Part shown: in pieces, positions 920-9,581 of the stretch | How positions within the stretch are numbered: position 1 is the stretch's first letter | How the letters are laid out: the number at the start of each line of letters is the position of its first letter | NCBI GenBank assembly: GCA_021784995.1 | Contig: JAJYHA010000382.1 | Span: 1 to 9,709 of the forward strand | Direction: 5' to 3' | Length of the DNA: 9,709 nt | DNA from: Myxococcales bacterium | GTDB lineage: Bacteria; Myxococcota; Myxococcia; Myxococcales; Anaeromyxobacteraceae | Notes under the pieces: model-generated | Told to the model about the DNA's origin: nothing | Seen by the model: the letters and a program-made list of their open reading frames with translations, nothing else | Databases searched by the model: none | Program-made: the position numbers and the translations under genes

Positions 920-1972
920 ATGAGACGGATCTTACTCTGCGTCGCTCTGGCGCTCGGAGCGGGCCCAGCCTTGGCGGGGCTCCCATCGGACCAGGACGAA
1001 TGCATGGGGTGTCACGGCAGCGACCCCTCCATGTCGATGGACCTCCCCAGCGGCGAAAAGCTCTCGCTCTACGTGGACCCGGCCGTCTTCTCGAAGTCGG
1101 TTCACGGCGAGATCCTGCGCTGCACCGACTGTCACACGGAGAAGAAGGGGTACCCGCACGACTCGAAGCCGTTCGCGTCGAAGCGCGACCTGGCCGTCGC
1201 CTACTACGATGGCTGCAAGGCCTGCCACTTCGCGAACTACACCAAGACGCTGGACGGGGTGCACTACGCCGTGATGGCGAAGGGGAACCGCCAGGCGGCG
1301 CTCTGCGTCGACTGCCACGGCTCCCACGACATCCAGCGGGCCAGCGAGCCGCGCACCCGCATCTCGCACACCTGCGCCAACTGCCACGCCGACGTCTTCA
1401 AGGTCTACGCGGCGAGCGTCCACGGCCGTGACGCGGAGGCGGGCAACGCGGACGTGCCGGTCTGCACCGACTGCCACCGCGCCCACGACATCGTCGACCC
1501 GCGCGGCGGCGCGCTCTCGCTCCGCACTCCCGAGGTGTGCGGCCGCTGCCACACCAACGAGAAGCTGATGGCGAAGTACGGGCTCTCCACCAAGGTGGTC
1601 GACACCTACCTGCGCGACTTCCACGGCATGTCGGCCACCCTCCAGCGCCGCAGCGCGGGGCACCGCAGCGGCAACCGGAAGAGCTTCGCCGCCGTCTGCA
1701 CCGACTGCCACGGCGTGCACGACATCCAGAAGTCGTCCGACCCGTCCTCGCACACGATCCAGGCCAACCTGGTGCAGACGTGCCGCAAGTGCCACCCGGA
1801 CGCGACGAAGGAGTTCCCGAAGGCGTGGCTGTCCCACTACGAGCCGACGCCGCACAAGGCCAGCCTCGTGTGGATGGTGCAGATGTTCTACAAGGTGCTG
1901 ATCCCCTTCATGGTCAGCGGCCTCGTCCTCCAGATCGCGCTGCACCTCTGGCGCGTGGTGGTCAACCGATGA
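920..1972 (+). CDS. Nine-haem c-type cytochrome with C-terminal membrane anchor
   Basis: 350 aa. A signal peptide (RR, then a hydrophobic stretch to about A19, with an ALA-G cleavage site) exports it to the periplasm, and a C-terminal helix at about 322-347 anchors it to the inner membrane. Nine CXXCH haem-c motifs begin at C28, C68, C99, C129, C152, C182, C207, C260 and C288. After the first haem the motifs run in pairs: a CxDCH site followed by a second CXXCH, preceded by a (V/F)H(G/Y) histidine (H62, H115, H168, H235) that could be a distal ligand. Three of the four pairs also carry HDI after the first motif. The stop overlaps the start of a cytochrome b gene by 4 bp, so the product is probably the periplasmic electron-accepting subunit of a quinol-oxidising bc-type complex (compare Geobacter CbcA, which has seven haems). 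The direction of electron flow is inference. GAGG abuts the ATG and GAAAGG lies 11 nt upstream. Confidence 0.95.
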   Translation: MRRILLCVALALGAGPALAGLPSDQDECMGCHGSDPSMSMDLPSGEKLSLYVDPAVFSKSVHGEILRCTDCHTEKKGYPHDSKPFASKRDLAVAYYDGCKACHFANYTKTLDGVHYAVMAKGNRQAALCVDCHGSHDIQRASEPRTRISHTCANCHADVFKVYAASVHGRDAEAGNADVPVCTDCHRAHDIVDPRGGALSLRTPEVCGRCHTNEKLMAKYGLSTKVVDTYLRDFHGMSATLQRRSAGHRSGNRKSFAAVCTDCHGVHDIQKSSDPSSHTIQANLVQTCRKCHPDATKEFPKAWLSHYEPTPHKASLVWMVQMFYKVLIPFMVSGLVLQIALHLWRVVVNR

Positions 1973-2682
1973 GCGACTCCATCGTCCGATTCTCCGTCAA
2001 GCAGCGCATCGAGCATTTCATCACGATGATCGTGTTCACGATGCTCTGCCTGACCGGCCTGCCGCAGAAGTTCTACGAGGCGGCCTGGGCGCAGCGGCTC
2101 GTCGACCTCTTCGGCGGCATCGACGCCACCCGGTGGATCCACCGCTTCTGCGGGTGGACCCTGGCCATCTCGACCGTCTTCCACTTCTACAGCGCGCTGT
2201 GGACCATCGGGCAGAAGAAGACCCGGCTGGCGATGATCCCCACCCGCCACGACTTCGAGGACGCCATCAACACGCTGCGGTACTACCTCGGCCTGCGCGA
2301 TCACGGGCCGAAGTACGATCGGTACGACTACAAGCAGAAGTTCGAGTACTGGGGGCTGGTGTTCGGTAACGTCATCATGGTGATGACGGGCCTCATCCTG
2401 ATCTACCCGACGTTCGTGGCGCGGCTGCTGCCAGGGCAGTTCGTCCCGGCGGCCAAGGTCGCTCACTCGAACGAGGGCTTGATGGCCTTCCTGGTCATCA
2501 CGATCTGGCACGTATACAACGCCCACCTGAACCCGGACGTCTTCCCGTTCGACACGGGCATCTTCACGGGGAGAATCTCCCGCGAGAGAATGGCGCACGA
2601 GCACCCGCTCGAGCTGGCCCGGATGGAGGGCCGGAGCGAGGAGGGGGAGCACGTGGCCGGCCATGCCCGGGAAGTGGTTTGA
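1969..2682 (+). CDS. Di-haem cytochrome b, four-helix membrane subunit of a bc-type quinol oxidoreductase
   Basis: 237 aa. The ATG overlaps the TGA of the cytochrome c gene (ATGA). Four hydrophobic helices are visible at about 14-36, 55-80, 125-148 and 166-188. Histidines suited to b-haem ligation lie in helix 1 (H16), helix 2 (H58 and H72) and helix 4 (H166 and H181). This is the pattern of the cytochrome b561 / formate-dehydrogenase-gamma-like family, which oxidises or reduces (mena)quinone and passes electrons to a partner. A soluble C-terminal tail contains HEHPLELAR (210-218), a feature I associate with cytochrome b subunits paired with multihaem cytochromes. The partner here is clearly the nine-haem protein upstream. 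No iron-sulfur or molybdopterin subunit lies next to it, so a dehydrogenase anchor is less likely. The exact ligand set and direction of electron flow are inference. Confidence 0.9.
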   Translation: MSDSIVRFSVKQRIEHFITMIVFTMLCLTGLPQKFYEAAWAQRLVDLFGGIDATRWIHRFCGWTLAISTVFHFYSALWTIGQKKTRLAMIPTRHDFEDAINTLRYYLGLRDHGPKYDRYDYKQKFEYWGLVFGNVIMVMTGLILIYPTFVARLLPGQFVPAAKVAHSNEGLMAFLVITIWHVYNAHLNPDVFPFDTGIFTGRISRERMAHEHPLELARMEGRSEEGEHVAGHAREVV

Positions 2683-3634
2683 CTACGCCGCGGAGTCGAT
2701 GACCCACGCCCTCGTCGCCGCGCTGGCGATGGAGGCGCTCCTGCGCGCGTGGCGCGCGCGCTCGCCGGACGACCGGCTGGTGCTGCGGCTGGTGGGGCTG
2801 GTCCAGCCGCTCCTGGTCACCCCGGCGCTCTTCCTCTTCGTCCCCCAGCGCGTGGGCGACGAGTTTCGGGACCGGTACGCGATCTTCTCGGCGCGCCACT
2901 GGGAAGAGGTGAGCCTTCGCGGTGTCACGGCGTTCCAGGCCGGGGTGGTGCTGCTGGCGCTCCTCGGCACCGCGCTCTTCCTGATGGACCTGATGCCGTT
3001 GCTGCGGGCCGGGAGCCGATCGCTGCCGGCGCCGGCGCCGGCGCCTCCCGAGCTGGAGGGCCTGGTGGCCGAGCTGTCCGCGGCGCGCCGGCTGCGCCCT
3101 CCCGGGATCCGCTTCGTCGAGGGGCCCGCGCCGGTGCTCTTCTGCGCCGGGGTGCGCGCCCCGGCGCTCGTGGTCTCGCGCGGCGCGCTGGCGCTGCTCG
3201 ACGCGGACGAGCTGCGCTCCGCGCTCTCGCACGAGCTGGCGCACCTCACGCGCCACGACCCCGCCACCTCCTGGATCATGATGTGCGTGCGGGCGGTCCT
3301 CTTCTTCAACCCGGTGGCGCAGGTGGTGGCGCGGGCGCTGGCCCGCGACGCGGAGTGGCGCGCCGACGAGGGGGCGGGCGGGGACAGGCTCGCGCTGGCG
3401 AGCGCGGTCCTCAAGCTGTACCGGACCGGCGTGCGCCGGCGTCCGGCCGCGGGCCGGACGCTCCCGTTCGCGGCCGTGCTGGGCGAGCCGCTGCGCCGGG
3501 TGCGTTCCCACGACGTCGAGGCGCGCTGCCGGCGGCTGCTCGAGCCCGCGCCGCCGGCGCGGCTCCCGCTGCGGCGGCTCCGGGTGGCGCTCGCGGCCGC
3601 CTGCCTGGTCGCGCTGGCGACGGTGGTGACGTGA
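2663..3634 (+). CDS. M56 (BlaR1-like) membrane zinc metallopeptidase
   Basis: 323 aa. The start lies inside the end of the cytochrome b gene (20-bp overlap), and a GGAGGGGGAG purine run ends 13 nt upstream of the ATG. Likely membrane segments are at about 15-28, 42-61, 91-112, 204-217 and 304-322. The catalytic core is HELAH (190-194; zinc ligands H190 and H194, base E191). A downstream RDAEWRADE stretch supplies E231 as probable third zinc ligand, and LFFNP (213-217) fits the M56 pattern between them. A Pro-Ala linker (121-129) separates the third helix from the protease region. The protein ends in a last helix with no C-terminal penicillin-binding sensor domain, and no BlaI-type repressor lies nearby, so a role in beta-lactam sensing is not indicated. 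It probably cuts a membrane or cytoplasmic regulator; the substrate is unknown. An M48 (HtpX-like) assignment is the main alternative. Confidence 0.87.
   Translation: MPGKWFDYAAESMTHALVAALAMEALLRAWRARSPDDRLVLRLVGLVQPLLVTPALFLFVPQRVGDEFRDRYAIFSARHWEEVSLRGVTAFQAGVVLLALLGTALFLMDLMPLLRAGSRSLPAPAPAPPELEGLVAELSAARRLRPPGIRFVEGPAPVLFCAGVRAPALVVSRGALALLDADELRSALSHELAHLTRHDPATSWIMMCVRAVLFFNPVAQVVARALARDAEWRADEGAGGDRLALASAVLKLYRTGVRRRPAAGRTLPFAAVLGEPLRRVRSHDVEARCRRLLEPAPPARLPLRRLRVALAAACLVALATVVT
3025..3045 (+). repeat. Hexanucleotide tandem repeat (GCCGGC)x3.5 within the protease gene
   Basis: Three exact GCCGGC units at 3025-3042 plus a half unit (GCC) encode the Pro-Ala linker between the third membrane helix and the protease domain. 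Unit gain or loss would stay in frame and change only linker length. Confidence 0.6.
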
Positions 3635-4194
3635 GCGGCCTGGCCCGCCCGGCGCCCGTGCGCCTCGTCGATCTCCTCGGGGTCCTGGGCTCCGTCGCCG
3701 CGGTGTTCACGGGCGCGGCGCTGGTGCTCCAGGGCGTGGACGCGCTGCCGGCGCTGATCACCGGCGAGCCCCGTCACGTGCGGCGCGCCGCCACCGTGGC
3801 CGAGGTGGAGCACCGGCTGCGCGCGCGCCTCCTCGTGCCGTACTACTTCCCGAGCACGCTCCTCTGGCCGCCGCAGCGCATCCGCTTCGTGCGCGGCCCG
3901 CCCGGCGCCGCCGCGCTGTGGGTGGGCGCGCGCGAGGGGGGACCGCACCTCCTCGTGGCGGAGACCCTGGGGCCGGGCCCCATCCCGCCGCCCCTGCTCC
4001 CCGACGCGCAGGTGCTGCACGCCTCCCCGGTGGCGGTGGGCCGGGCCCGCGGCACGCTCGCGCGCGTCGTGGAGGACGGCGCCATGGCCTGGCAGCTCAC
4101 CTGGGTGCAGGACGGCCGCAGCATCCTGCTGCGGTCGCGGGGCACGGTGGACGAGCTGCTCCGCATCGCCCGCAGCGTGAGGGAGGAGCAATGA
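3631..4194 (+). CDS. Small single-pass membrane protein with DUF4367-like C-terminal region
   Basis: 187 aa from a GTG that overlaps the protease stop (GTGA, 4 bp); the next gene starts on its own stop (ATGA). One hydrophobic helix at about 12-33 is followed by a presumably periplasmic domain. Two stretches recall the DUF4367 / RseB-like lipid-facing domains: VPYYFPSTLL (69-78) and the C-terminal W-x3-W...DGRSILL...ELLRIARSV region (154-183). In that family this domain often sits on anti-sigma or envelope-sensing proteins. I see no catalytic residues. Its place between a membrane protease and a sensor kinase suggests an accessory sensor, protease regulator or substrate, but that is inference. 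The domain call is by eye and tentative; the reading frame itself is well supported by the flanking overlaps. Confidence 0.8.
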   Translation: MSGLARPAPVRLVDLLGVLGSVAAVFTGAALVLQGVDALPALITGEPRHVRRAATVAEVEHRLRARLLVPYYFPSTLLWPPQRIRFVRGPPGAAALWVGAREGGPHLLVAETLGPGPIPPPLLPDAQVLHASPVAVGRARGTLARVVEDGAMAWQLTWVQDGRSILLRSRGTVDELLRIARSVREEQ

Positions 4195-6074
4195 GCCCCG
4201 GGGCGCAGACCCGCGCGGGCGGCCTGGGGCGTCAGGGGCTCCGCTTCCGCGTCTACCTGCTGATCGCCATCGGCGTCCTCGTCCCCTCGGCGCTGGTGGG
4301 CTCCCTCGCCTGGTGGCACCTGTCGGAGCTCGACCACGAGCTGCTGGCGGCGCGCCGCGGCGCGACCATCGCGGTCGCGGAGCACGTGGACGAGGAGATC
4401 ACCGGCGACCTCGAGGCGCTCCAGCGCCTGGCGTCGGCGCCGGCCGTCACCGGTGGAGGGTCGCAGGAGGCGGTCGACGCCCTGCTGCGCGCCACCTACC
4501 TCCACGCGCAGTTCCTGGGCGGGCTCTTCCTGCTCGATCGCGAGGGGAGGGTGCTCATCGAGGAGCCGCGCGGCGGGCGCTCGGTGGCGCCGCCGTGGAA
4601 CCTCCCGGAGGTGCAGGCCACCCTGCGGGACGGCAAGCCGCGCGTCACCTCGCTGGAGGGCGCGCACGACGAGGAGCGCACCTACGCGCTCGTCTCGGTG
4701 GTGGACTGGCGCGGCAAGCCGATGGGAGTCGTGGGCGCGGTGATCGACCCGGGCCAGCCGGCGCGCGCGCGCGTGCTGCGCCACCTGATCCGGCGCCCGG
4801 GGGGGCACGCGAGCATCGTCGACGCGAACGGGACCGTGCTGGCCAGCACCGAACGCGGCCAGGTCCACCAGGCCATCAGCTGCCGCGCGCGCACGGCCCG
4901 GCTCGTGCGCGCGAAGGAGACCTCCATCGGGCTGTGCCGGGACTGCCACGCCACCGCCGTCCCCTGGATCATGGCGGTGGCGCCGCTCTCGGCGGCGCCC
5001 TGGGCCGTGGTGACGATCCAGCCGGAGGAGGCGGTGCTGGCCACCGCGCGGGGCATCTCCGGCCGCCTGATCCTGCTGGCGGTCGGCCTGCTGATCATGG
5101 CCGGGACCTTCGCGTGGGGGGCGGTGCGGAGCGTGACGCGCCCCGTGGCCGTGCTCACGGCGTCGGCCGAGCGCATCGCGGCGGGCGGCATGGACGAGCC
5201 GATCCCGGAGCTGGGGGCCGACGAGCTGGGCCGGCTCGGCCGCTCGGTCGAGCGCATGCGCAGCTCGCTGCGCGAGATGATCGCCTACGTGGCGCGGGCG
5301 AACGAGGCGCTCGAGCAGCGCGTCGCGGAGCGGACGCGCGAGCTGGCCAGCGCCAACGCGCAGCTGCGGGAGCGCGACGCCCAGCGGCAGCGGCTGCTCC
5401 GCACGGTGATCACCGCGCAGGAGGACGAGCGCAAGCGCATCGCCCGCGAGCTGCACGACGAGACCACGCAGAGCCTGGCCGCGCTCGCCATGGGGATCGA
5501 GGCGGCGGGCAGCGCGATCCGCAGCGGCGGGCCGCGCCCCCGGCTCGACGAGGTGAAGACGCTGGCGGTGCGGACGCTGGAGGAGGTCCACCGCCTCATC
5601 CTCGACCTGCGCCCGGCGGTGCTCGACGACCTGGGGCTCTCCTCGGCCCTGCGCTGGTACGCCGAGCGCTGCCTGACCAGCCGCGGCATCGCCGTCCGGT
5701 GCGAGATCGCGGAGATGGGGCGGCGGCTCCCGACCGAGATCGAGGTCGCGCTCTTCCGCATGGCGCAGGAGGTGATGAACAACATCGCCCGCCACGCCGA
5801 GGCCGAGTCGGTGCTGATCCAGATGGAGCAGAGCGGCCGCGAGCTGCGCATCGAGATCGAGGACGACGGCAAGGGCTTCGCCCCCGGCACGGCGCCGACG
5901 GACCGCCCGCACTACGGGCTGCTCGGGCTGCAGGAGCGCGCGGACCTGCTGGGGGGCAAGCTGACCGTCGACTCCGCGCCCGGCCGCGGCACCCGGATCG
6001 AGATCGTGGTGCCGCTCCCGCCGGACGAGGCTTCCCCGGAGGCGCCGGCCCCGATAAGCTCGGAGGCGCCGTGA
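4191..6074 (+). CDS. Sensor histidine kinase (HisKA_3 type) with periplasmic haem-c motif
   Basis: 627 aa, ATG overlapping the previous stop, with a strong GGGAGGAG ribosome site at 4181-4188. Order of parts: helix 1 (about 20-41), a periplasmic Cache-like region (42-290), helix 2 (291-313), HAMP (about 314-366), coiled coil (about 366-415), dimerisation/phosphoacceptor segment with ELHDE (H422 the likely phosphorylated His), and an HATPase domain with the EVMNN N-box (527-531), DDGKGF (558-563) and GLLGLQERADLLGG (576-589). This is the NarX/DegS-type subfamily that pairs with LuxR-type regulators, and such a regulator follows directly. The second half of the periplasmic region contains CRDCH (249-253), a perfect c-type haem attachment motif, plus a lone C231. 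H226 or M261 are possible second axial ligands. The kinase probably senses redox state or a small haem ligand; no signal is proven. Confidence 0.94.
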   Translation: MSPGAQTRAGGLGRQGLRFRVYLLIAIGVLVPSALVGSLAWWHLSELDHELLAARRGATIAVAEHVDEEITGDLEALQRLASAPAVTGGGSQEAVDALLRATYLHAQFLGGLFLLDREGRVLIEEPRGGRSVAPPWNLPEVQATLRDGKPRVTSLEGAHDEERTYALVSVVDWRGKPMGVVGAVIDPGQPARARVLRHLIRRPGGHASIVDANGTVLASTERGQVHQAISCRARTARLVRAKETSIGLCRDCHATAVPWIMAVAPLSAAPWAVVTIQPEEAVLATARGISGRLILLAVGLLIMAGTFAWGAVRSVTRPVAVLTASAERIAAGGMDEPIPELGADELGRLGRSVERMRSSLREMIAYVARANEALEQRVAERTRELASANAQLRERDAQRQRLLRTVITAQEDERKRIARELHDETTQSLAALAMGIEAAGSAIRSGGPRPRLDEVKTLAVRTLEEVHRLILDLRPAVLDDLGLSSALRWYAERCLTSRGIAVRCEIAEMGRRLPTEIEVALFRMAQEVMNNIARHAEAESVLIQMEQSGRELRIEIEDDGKGFAPGTAPTDRPHYGLLGLQERADLLGGKLTVDSAPGRGTRIEIVVPLPPDEASPEAPAPISSEAP

Positions 6075-6715
6075 GCAAGATCCGGGTCCTGATCGCCGAC
6101 GATCACGCCATCCTCCGGGAGGGGGTGCGGGCGCTCCTCTCGGCGACCGACGACATCGAGGTCGTGGGGCAGGCGGCGGACGGGCGCGAGGCCATCGAGG
6201 CCTGCCGCAGGCTCGACCCCGACGTCGTGCTGATGGACATCGCCATGCCCGGGCTGGGCGGGCTGGAGGCGGCCCTCGAGATCCGGAAGGAGGGGCTCCG
6301 CGCGCGCGTGCTCGTGCTCTCGCAGTACGAGGACCGCGAGTACGTGCGGCGGCTGCTCAAGGCGGGCGTGGCCGGCTACGTGCTGAAGAAGTCGGCGGGG
6401 AGCGAGCTGGTGGGCGCCATCCGGGCGGCGCACCGCGGCGGGCTGGTGCTCGATCCCGAGGTGGCGCGCGCCGCGATGGAGCAGGCGGATCCGCGCCGCC
6501 CCGGCGGCGACCCCTACGAGACGCTGACCGACCGCGAGAAGCAGGTCTTCCGGCTCGTGGCCGAGGGCAAGAGCAACAAGGAGGTGGCGGACGTGCTCGG
6601 CATCAGCGTCAAGACCGCCATGTCGCACCGCGAGCACGTGATGGAGAAGCTCGACCTCCACAACCGCACCGAGCTGGTCAAGCTGGCGCTCAAGCTGGGC
6701 GTGATCCAGGTGTAG
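6071..6715 (+). CDS. NarL/FixJ-family response regulator
   Basis: 214 aa from a GTG overlapping the kinase stop (GTGA), with GGAGG at 6062-6066, 4 nt upstream. The receiver domain has the acidic pair D10/D11, phosphoacceptor D56 (LMDIAMP), switch Ser S84 and conserved K106. A short linker leads to a LuxR-type helix-turn-helix at about 149-210 (LTDREKQVFRLVAEGKSNKE, then the recognition helix around VKTAMSHREHVMEKL). All catalytic receiver residues are intact, so it should accept phosphate from the kinase upstream and bind DNA as a dimer. Targets are unknown; autoregulation of this operon through the sites at 756-809 is possible but unproven. Confidence 0.95.
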   Translation: MSKIRVLIADDHAILREGVRALLSATDDIEVVGQAADGREAIEACRRLDPDVVLMDIAMPGLGGLEAALEIRKEGLRARVLVLSQYEDREYVRRLLKAGVAGYVLKKSAGSELVGAIRAAHRGGLVLDPEVARAAMEQADPRRPGGDPYETLTDREKQVFRLVAEGKSNKEVADVLGISVKTAMSHREHVMEKLDLHNRTELVKLALKLGVIQV

Positions 6716-6770: not shown

Positions 6771-9581
6771 GTGGCGCAGCGAGACGCGCCGGGAGCACCG
6801 TGGGGGCCGGGGTCCGCCGTGACGGCCAGCACGTCGCCGTGGGCGCAGGAGATCGGCGAGCTCACGGCCCACCTCGCCAGCGCCGATCGAGGCCTCGCGC
6901 AGGGCGAGGCGGCGCGGCGGCTCGCTCGCGACGGCCCCAACGAGCTGCCGCGCGAGCGATCGCGCCCTGCGTGGCGGATCGCCCGGGACGAGCTGACGCA
7001 CTTCATGGCCGTCCTGCTCTGGATCGCGGGGGGCCTGGCATTCGCCTCGCGCGCGCCGGAGCTGGGCTGGGCGATCTGGGGCGTGGTGTGCGTCAACGGC
7101 GCCTTCAGCTTCTGGCAGCAGCGCAAGGCGGAGCGCGCGCTGCAGGCCCTGCAGCGGCGGCTCCCGGACCGCGCGCGCGTGTACCGGGGCGGGCGCCTCG
7201 CCGTCCTCCCCGCCCGGGAGCTGGTCCCCGGCGACGTGATCGAGCTGGCCGAGGGCGACCGCGTGCCGGCCGACGCGCGCGTCGTCACGGCGGAGCTGCT
7301 GCACCTCGACCTGTCGCTGCTGACCGGCGAGTCGGCGCCGGTGGAGCGGCGCGGGGCGCCGGCGGCGCCCGGGGTGCGAGCGCTCGACGCGCCGGGCGCG
7401 GTGCTGGCCGGCGCGACGGTCGTCGCCGGGCGCGCCCGCGCCCTCGTCTACGCCACGGGGCGCGCCACGGAGCTGGGGAGGGTCGCCGCGCTCACGGCCG
7501 CGGTGCGGCGGCAGCCGAGCACGCTGGCGGAGCAGGTGCGCCACGTCGTGCACGTGATCACGGTGCTCGCCGCGGCCATGGGCGTCGCGGTGTTCCTGGT
7601 GGGCGGCGCGGTGGGCGGGCTCCCGGCGCACGAACGCCTGCTCTTCGCCGTCGCCATCATCGTCGCGAACGTGCCGGAGGGGCTGCTGCCGACCATCACC
7701 CTGGCCCTCGCGCTGGGGGTCCAGCGGATGGCCCAGCGCAGGGTGCTGGTGCGCCGCATGAACGCCATCGAGACGCTGAGCGCGGTGACGGTGATCTGCA
7801 CCGACAAGACCGGGACCCTGACGCGCAACGAGATGGCGGTCCGCGAGGCGTGGCTGCCGGGCCGCGGCGCGGTCCCGGTGCGCGACGGCGCCGAGCTCCC
7901 GCTCCGGCGCCTCCTCGCCGCCGCGGCGCTCTGCACCGAGGCGGGCGGGATCCCCGGCGCGGGCGTGGGGGCGATGCGGGACGGCATGGAGATCGCGCTG
8001 GTGGAGGCCGCCGGCGTGGGCCTGGAGACGCTCCGGGACCGGGCCGAGGTGCTGCGGGTGATCCCCTTCGTGCGCGCGCGCCGCGCGATGACGGCGATCG
8101 TGCGGTGGGACGCGCTCGGCCTGCGCGCCCCGGGGGCCGTGGTGGCCATCGGCAAGGGCGCGCCCGCCGACCTCCTCGCCCGCTGCGACCGGGTGCTGGA
8201 GGGCGCGGCGGCCGTCGCGCTCGACGCCGGCGGGCGGGCCGCCGTGCTGGCGGAGCACGACCGCCTCGCGACCCGGGGCTACCGGATGCTGGCCGTCGCG
8301 CTGTGGGACGCGGCGGCGGGCGCGGCGTCCCCGGGGGCGACCGGCGACGTCGCGGAGGGGGGGCTGCTCCTGGGGCTGGTCGCGATCATGGATCCGCCGA
8401 GGCCGGGGGTGGCGGAGGCGATCGAGACCTGCCGTCGCGCGGGCATCGAGGTCACGATGGTGACCGGCGACCACGGCGCCACCGCCGAGGCCGTCGCGCG
8501 GGAGGTGGGGCTCGTCCGCGGCCCCGCCACGGTGGTCGCGGGCGACGAGCTCGCCGCCATGGACGACGGGCGCCTGCGGGCGCTCCTGCGCGACGGCCGC
8601 GGCCTGATCTTCTCGCGCGTGGCGCCCGACCAGAAGCTCCGGCTGGTCGAGGCCTACCGGGCGCTGGGCCACGTGGTGGCCGTGACGGGGGACGGCGTGA
8701 ACGACGCGCCGGCGCTGCGCGCGGCCGACGTCGGGATCGCCATGGGGGCGAGCGGGACCGACGTGGCGCGGGAGGCGGCCGACATCGTGCTGCTCGACGA
8801 CGACTTCCGCTCCATCGTGGTGGCGGTGGAGGAGGGCCGGTCGCTCTTCCAGAACATCCGCAAGTTCCTCGCGTACATCCTCACCTCCAACGTCCCGGAG
8901 CTCGTGCCCTACCTGGCCATGCTCGCCCTGCGCATCCCGCCGGCGCTGGGGATCCTGCAGATCCTGGCCATCGACCTGGGGACGGACATGCTCCCGGCGC
9001 TGGCGCTCGGAGGCGAGCCGCCGGAGGCGGCCGTCATGGCCGCGCCGCCCAGGAGCCGGAGCGCCGCGCTGCTCGATCGCGCCCTGCTCGCGCGCGCCTA
9101 CCTGCGGCTCGGGCTGGTGCAGGCCGCGACCAGCATGGCGGGCTTCTTCCTGATCCTGCGCGGCCACGGGATCGGGATCGGCGAGCTGCAGCGCGCCGCG
9201 GGAGCGCTCCTCTCCGGCGCCGCGGACCCCACCACGGCGAGCGCCTTCCGGCAGGCGTCGACGGTGGCCCTGGCGGTGATCGTGGCCAGCCAGGTGGGGA
9301 ACGTCCTGGCGTGCCGGTCGGAGCGGTCGTCGGCGTTCCGGGGGTGGGTCCGCAATCCCCTCCTGCGCGCGGGGATCCTGCTCGAGCTGACCTTGCTGGC
9401 GGGGCTCGTCTACGTGCCCTGGGCGCAGCGGGTCTTCGGCACCGCGCCGCCGCCGGCGGCGGCGTGGGCGGCGCTGCCGGCGGCGCCGCTGGCGCTGCTG
9501 GCGGTCGACGAGGCGTGGAAGCGCCTGGCGGCGCGGAGACGGTCAGGGCGCCGTGACCGCGCGCTCGCGGGAGGGCTCTGA
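6771..9581 (+). CDS. P-type cation ATPase, type II with Na,K-ATPase (P2C)-like ion-site helices
   Basis: 936 aa from the GTG at 6771; an in-frame GTG at 6819 (V17) is an equally possible start, and neither has a good ribosome site. Full set of P-type motifs: TGES (185-188), NVPEGLL in TM4 (E303), phosphorylated D345 in DKTGT, KGAP (462-465), TGD (565-567) and GDGVNDAP (640-647). About ten membrane helices fit (four before the large loop, six after). TM5 reads YILTSNVPELVP (702-713) and TM6 IDLGTDMLPA (734-743), close to the animal Na,K-ATPase alpha subunit and unlike heavy-metal pumps. The Ser at 706, where H,K-ATPase has Lys, points to the Na,K type. No CPC motif and no N-terminal metal-binding domain is present. 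KGAPE is altered to KGAPA. No beta-subunit gene is visible. It should move monovalent or divalent cations across the inner membrane using ATP; which ion is not settled. It starts 55 bp after the regulator gene and may be a separate unit. Confidence 0.93.
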   Translation: MAQRDAPGAPWGPGSAVTASTSPWAQEIGELTAHLASADRGLAQGEAARRLARDGPNELPRERSRPAWRIARDELTHFMAVLLWIAGGLAFASRAPELGWAIWGVVCVNGAFSFWQQRKAERALQALQRRLPDRARVYRGGRLAVLPARELVPGDVIELAEGDRVPADARVVTAELLHLDLSLLTGESAPVERRGAPAAPGVRALDAPGAVLAGATVVAGRARALVYATGRATELGRVAALTAAVRRQPSTLAEQVRHVVHVITVLAAAMGVAVFLVGGAVGGLPAHERLLFAVAIIVANVPEGLLPTITLALALGVQRMAQRRVLVRRMNAIETLSAVTVICTDKTGTLTRNEMAVREAWLPGRGAVPVRDGAELPLRRLLAAAALCTEAGGIPGAGVGAMRDGMEIALVEAAGVGLETLRDRAEVLRVIPFVRARRAMTAIVRWDALGLRAPGAVVAIGKGAPADLLARCDRVLEGAAAVALDAGGRAAVLAEHDRLATRGYRMLAVALWDAAAGAASPGATGDVAEGGLLLGLVAIMDPPRPGVAEAIETCRRAGIEVTMVTGDHGATAEAVAREVGLVRGPATVVAGDELAAMDDGRLRALLRDGRGLIFSRVAPDQKLRLVEAYRALGHVVAVTGDGVNDAPALRAADVGIAMGASGTDVAREAADIVLLDDDFRSIVVAVEEGRSLFQNIRKFLAYILTSNVPELVPYLAMLALRIPPALGILQILAIDLGTDMLPALALGGEPPEAAVMAAPPRSRSAALLDRALLARAYLRLGLVQAATSMAGFFLILRGHGIGIGELQRAAGALLSGAADPTTASAFRQASTVALAVIVASQVGNVLACRSERSSAFRGWVRNPLLRAGILLELTLLAGLVYVPWAQRVFGTAPPPAAAWAALPAAPLALLAVDEAWKRLAARRRSGRRDRALAGGL

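Follow-up and report, generated by a model that had tools for sequence, protein, structure and literature searches.

Respiratory operons accompanied by a HisKA_3 sensor kinase and a NarL-type response regulator follow the design of NarX/NarL, TorSR and TtrSR-type systems. In Geobacter, multihaem c-type and b-type cytochromes of CbcL and CbcBA work jointly at the menaquinone pool; CbcL is described as a bc-type complex oxidising menaquinol, and induction near -0.2 V is reported for CbcBA (PMC12307469). Haem-binding sensors of the sCache_heme group carry a CXXCH motif in a Cache-fold loop before the last strands, and kinase-type members are reported in a preprint to bind nitric oxide (NO; PMC12889525). 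Here we describe a locus from a Myxococcales bacterium of the Anaeromyxobacteraceae, contained in a 9,709-nucleotide stretch of contig JAJYHA010000382.1 (the window), which unites a cytochrome pair with a membrane protease, a small membrane protein and a two-component pair.

Positions 920-6715 of the window hold six plus-strand genes in the order cytochrome c (cytC), cytochrome b (cytB), M56 family metalloprotease (M56), small membrane protein (SMP), sensor histidine kinase (HK) and response regulator (RR). Successive genes overlap by 4, 20, 4, 4 and 4 bp, the 20-bp overlap being that of cytB and M56, and the coordinates of the open reading frames (ORFs) thus bear out the six coupled genes of the initial annotation. 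The loci display directly a shared gene content that is conserved and linked, together with intact catalytic and haem motifs and predicted folds. We read the locus as an operon that encodes a quinone-linked bc-type electron-transfer module together with control genes of its own, at a probability of about 0.6.

Conservation of the six-gene module

Besides the window, 22 genomes carry the full order on one strand (17 Anaeromyxobacteraceae, one other Myxococcota and four Acidobacteriota). Because the same gene order recurs in genomes of two phyla, the arrangement is not a product of chance. Genes of the relatives were called with our own simple caller, and the phylum searches scored 5-11 candidates per genome, which makes absences soft. 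A profile built from 24 M56 proteins identified 29 loci in the genome collection. In the first nine the module is whole or truncated by a contig end; beyond these, L010 has M56 and SMP only, its contig beginning 185 bp before M56, and the remaining loci hold distant M56 only.

Within the Anaeromyxobacteraceae, the family of A. oryzae, M56 is present in 22 of 24 genomes, and all visible neighbours in the 22 short loci are module genes in the same order. The complete one-strand module was found in 17 of these 22 (L002-L004, L006, L007, L123 and L217-L227, with L227 and L008 being the same place), while for the other five only contig-cut stretches or short loci were covered. G015 and G018, the two genomes without M56, likewise lack an orthologous cytC at E <= 1e-50; what matches in G018 belongs to a longer protein that has 11 CXXCH motifs. 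Beyond this family, complete one-strand loci occur in Myxococcota G071 and in Acidobacteriota G340, G442, G251 and G373. The module is cut by contig ends in G009 and G109, and its parts lie adjacent on both strands in Myxococcota G166 and G058 and in Acidobacteriota G230, G552 and G506. SMP is weak or unrecognised in L191-L193, where the gene after M56 gives no match in L191, 18 bits in L192 and 25 bits in L193.

The two marker genes also occur together at the level of whole genomes. Among 195 Myxococcota genomes, M56 was found in 29 (E <= 1e-20) and cytC in 28 (E <= 1e-50), with 26 in common; cytC alone was found in G018, where it is the different protein, and in G159, and M56 alone, weakly, in G079, G094 and G095. 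Outside the Anaeromyxobacteraceae the overlap has a p-value of 1.5e-7, with stricter cut-offs chosen afterwards and relatedness ignored. In 396 Acidobacteriota genomes, all five with a strong M56 match are among the 16 cytC genomes defined below (p 5.5e-8, again with post-hoc cut-offs and relatedness ignored). None of 25 pattern-matching viral stretches encoded a relative, so that viral carriage was set aside. A literature search of limited scope found no description of this gene combination.

Protease, cytochromes and kinase

M56 (2663-3634) is a protein of 323 residues that matches Peptidase_M56 with 43.8 bits (Pfam cut-off 31). Its HEXXH motif (residues 190-194, 3230-3244) and the downstream Glu231 (3353-3355), probably the third zinc ligand judging by the alignments, are invariant in both the 24-row and the 10-row alignment. 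Four membrane helices are predicted, with the active-site loop placed in the cytosol by hydropathy and K+R counts, and the chain stops after the last helix, leaving no C-terminal extracytoplasmic sensor domain. The next gene, SMP (3631-4194), encodes 187 residues with one long N-terminal membrane helix and one domain, predicted to be a periplasmic alpha/beta domain. SMP has no Pfam family match. The initial annotation had called it DUF4367-like, a label without profile support in either the window protein or nine relatives, which gave only weak unrelated hits. A profile search with 21 SMP sequences, in which 7997 candidates were scored, returned 25 proteins versus 37 by single-sequence search, and the family was barely widened. 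A fusion of M56 and SMP was sought as Rosetta-stone proof, and no ORF in the loci examined matched both.

The foremost alternative concerns these two proteins. M56-SMP could be an HtpX-like quality-control or assembly factor that clears cytochrome b left unassembled or without haem, SMP serving as periplasmic adaptor and the two-component pair alone regulating expression. Among solved structures, the M56 profile comes closest in sequence to an HtpX homologue (E 3.3e-8), with BlaR1 (E 0.0039) behind it, and NCBIfam models rank the two likewise, both below cut-off. Furthermore, the predicted active-site loop is cytosolic, as in HtpX, and M56-SMP directly follows cytB also in L191-L193, whose kinase pair is encoded on the opposite strand. 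Half of the 16 Acidobacteriota pairs, however, have no adjoining M56, which indicates that the complex does not need it, and in L115 M56-SMP is encoded apart from cytochromes. We regard this alternative as tentative, though the most credible of those considered.

The cytochrome pair opens the operon. CytC (920-1972) has 350 residues, a signal peptide, nine CXXCH motifs and one C-terminal membrane helix, and matches the Pfam families cytochrome c7 and paired CXXCH. CytB (1969-2682, 237 residues) belongs to the Ni_hydr_CYTB / FdnI kind, with a Pfam match to Ni_hydr_CYTB, and among solved chains it comes closest to the b subunit of formate dehydrogenase N (E 5.7e-8). The genes for the multihaem c and membrane b cytochromes adjoin, as in bc-type, quinol-oxidising cytochromes of the CbcBA/CbcL kind, and the pair may likewise pass electrons from quinol to the periplasm.

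Electrons might also flow in the opposite direction, from a periplasmic donor such as H2 or formate through cytC and cytB to the quinone pool, as in Fdn/Hyd-like systems. This would fit the proximity of cytB to the b subunits of formate dehydrogenase and hydrogenase, and two scanned Acidobacteriota loci carry genes for hydrogenase maturation upstream of the module (hypF, hypD and a hypE-like gene at L111:842-5601; hypF at L113:13029-15308). Against it, the six conserved genes encode no donor enzyme, and the large subunit of nickel-iron (NiFe) hydrogenase, although present in 41 of 48 genomes, was located close to the module in a single genome, G373 (about 14 kb away), and on the module's contig in one other, G071 (about 77 kb). 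Hydrogenase is not a regular neighbour of the module and was rejected as partner of the cytochrome pair, and we consider the reversed flow somewhat unlikely. Despite the maturation genes upstream of Acidobacteriota modules, G340 and G442 gave only weak complex-I-like PF00374 matches. In Acidobacteriota G546, a 930-residue protein with 19 CXXCH motifs (L190:4674-7466) directly follows the cytochrome pair, and control genes are absent.

The last two genes encode the two-component pair. The kinase (4191-6074, 627 residues) has Pfam matches to HAMP, HisKA_3 and HATPase_c, and one to dCache_1 below threshold. Its periplasmic sensor is a double Cache, with double-Cache chains ranking top in the fold comparison. 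Across 13 kinases dCache_1 was matched in 12, and no match of the DUF3365/Tll0287 type was found in any of the 13, with 14 listed families considered. A single CXXCH (residues 249-253, 4935-4949) lies in a loop of the second Cache module. The initial annotation had named this protein a haem-c kinase; the motif is indeed there in the window, and it is present in 18 of 19 Anaeromyxobacteraceae kinases versus 4 of 14 elsewhere, so that as a general trait it fails in the 10 that lack it. About 18 residues before the motif, residue 231 (4881-4883) is a conserved Cys, replaced by His in other lineages, and is a possible axial haem ligand. The regulator (6071-6715, 214 residues) is of the NarL/LuxR type, with Pfam Response_reg and GerE. 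NCBIfam equivalog scores for kinase and regulator are all below cut-off.

Coupling, promoter-like element and proposed function

The coupling of the cytochromes to their control genes is not obligatory, and several findings weigh against the reading given above. Of 396 Acidobacteriota genomes, 77 have a cytC match at E <= 1e-50, and in 16 of the 77 it reaches at least 400 bits. M56 adjoins the pair in 8 of these 16 and is missing beside it in the other 8, while kinase genes adjoin in 12 (in G009 the kinase start only). Four genomes (G316, G252, G295 and G342) have cytC-cytB-HK-RR without a protease, and in G546, G532, G471 and G447 neither M56 nor kinase stands beside the pair; a second cytC place in G471 (L196) was not parsed by the caller. 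The G159 pair sits at the edge of a 4.7 kb contig that contains neither M56 nor kinase. Conversely, M56-SMP occurs without cytochromes in the Chloroflexota (L115; M56 matches in 19 of 301 genomes), as well as in L010 and, in fragments, in L125. The best fold match of the SMP domain, the RseB C-domain, leads by a small margin and in fold only. Finally, the genomes are related, and the p-values therefore overstate independence.

From the partial loci we therefore distinguish three separable blocks, namely the cytochrome pair, the two-component pair and M56-SMP. The 27-row cytC tree was rooted at its midpoint and its deep forks are weak, for which reason no order of M56-SMP gain or loss was drawn from it. 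The initial annotation had proposed that co-occurrence in relatives would support the coupling and that a usual separation of the cytochromes from protease and kinase would refute it. Both were encountered in part: the pair stands beside protease and two-component genes in most relatives, even when these are shuffled between strands, yet not in all, as the Acidobacteriota without an adjoining protease illustrate. Because this adjacency persists in most relatives and through strand shuffling, a functional link is likely, and the link of the pair to the control genes is well supported by the comparison of loci. That the genes are mere neighbours in a lineage-specific operon is highly improbable: bacterial operons do gather unrelated genes and the module is commonest in one family, but it spans two phyla, keeps its linkage through several arrangements, and M56 and cytC are jointly absent from two Anaeromyxobacteraceae genomes.

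A promoter-like element, TTGGAC-N14-GGCGTA, lies on the plus strand at 836-861, 84 nt before the cytC start, and is the only match in the window, with none on the minus strand. The pattern TTGGAC-N14..17-GGCGTA/TGGTA occurs in 14 of 26 cytC upstream regions (in 200 shuffles, a mean of 0.02 and at most 1) and is missing from 12; in this set some relatives' start codons were chosen by a simple rule. Seven loci, 282,596 bases with both strands counted, contain five matches, all of them immediately before cytC. A stricter form, TTGGAC-N14..17-TGGTAG, has a single match in 6 of 12 genomes, in every case at this same place, and none in the other six. The reversed pattern, used as control, gave 41 matches in the 12 genomes versus 6 for the real one, so that there is no genome-wide enrichment. 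Since the pattern was read off these same sequences, only its location is informative.

On the reading as a quinone-linked module with its own control genes, cytochrome b together with the inner-membrane-anchored nonahaem cytochrome c would carry out quinone-linked electron transfer in a presumed direction. The two-component pair would form the transcriptional layer. Its periplasmic double Cache, with c-haem where CXXCH is present, may sense a small molecule, a gas or the redox state, and the NarL-type regulator would presumably act on the putative promoter just upstream of cytC. M56-SMP would add a further layer, separable from the first, in which a periplasmic domain anchored in the membrane gates a membrane protease that faces the cytosol, much like a BlaR1 cut into two polypeptides and acting on a presumed substrate.

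The genes around the module complete the window. Positions 1-606 encode a GcvH-like (lipoyl-type) protein truncated by the window start. In the Anaeromyxobacteraceae loci L002, L004, L006 and L123 the upstream genes are alike in size and order; those of L006 encode a twin-arginine translocation (TAT)-signal iron-sulfur (Fe-S) protein, NrfD, a GcvH-like protein, a small cytochrome c7 and another GcvH-like protein. Two GcvH-like genes thus flank a small multihaem c7 cytochrome in relatives, after the TAT Fe-S protein and NrfD, and a lipoyl-type carrier protein is odd in such a cytochrome/NrfD cluster. A P-type cation ATPase (6771-9581) lies directly downstream and is not counted as part of the module, the downstream genes of the same four loci being different.

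Comparison with described systems

The cytochrome pair resembles Geobacter CbcL and CbcBA in combining multihaem c and b cytochromes, a likeness of gene content. It differs in its nine haem motifs in cytC and in the protease and kinase/regulator pair added to the operon. With BlaR1/MecR1 (MEROPS M56), the protease shares the M56 domain with HEXXH and the downstream Glu, and its four predicted membrane helices and predicted cytosolic loop would fit the same plan. Unlike BlaR1/MecR1, it has no beta-lactam sensor, and a separate membrane-anchored periplasmic protein follows in the operon; no BlaI-type repressor was found by Pfam among the eight window proteins scanned. SMP in turn differs from RseB/MucB in lacking the large N-terminal domain and in being membrane-anchored, not free in the periplasm.

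The kinase is like sCache_heme (DUF3365/Tll0287) sensors in its CXXCH, a putative haem attachment site, within a Cache-fold loop, and unlike them in having a double instead of a single Cache and in the many relatives without the motif. With NarX/NarL, TorSR and TtrSR it shares the HisKA_3 and HATPase_c kinase and the Response_reg and GerE regulator, while the double-Cache input and, in some lineages, the CXXCH set it apart.

A more specific proposal, which we hold to be doubtful, is that BlaR1 has here been taken apart, M56 and a separate RseB-like periplasmic sensor forming a two-piece signalling protease on a respiratory complex, beside a double-Cache kinase whose c-haem was gained independently of the single-Cache haem sensors. 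Proteolysis and phosphorylation would then provide two separate readings of electron flow or of periplasmic redox or NO state. Bacteria from soil and sediment, belonging to two phyla, carry the module, and in them one respiratory branch may have dedicated tuning equipment. As a conserved third layer, the protease and its periplasmic partner would show that electron-transfer complexes in metal-reducing soil bacteria can be adjusted post-translationally as well as transcriptionally. The loci offer a natural series for comparing these layers (pair alone, pair with kinase, pair with protease and kinase), along with a kinase family some of whose members have the CXXCH while others lack it. As a whole, a respiratory operon with two-component genes next to it is commonplace among described systems; what is unusual here is the conserved M56-SMP block and the CXXCH within a double Cache.
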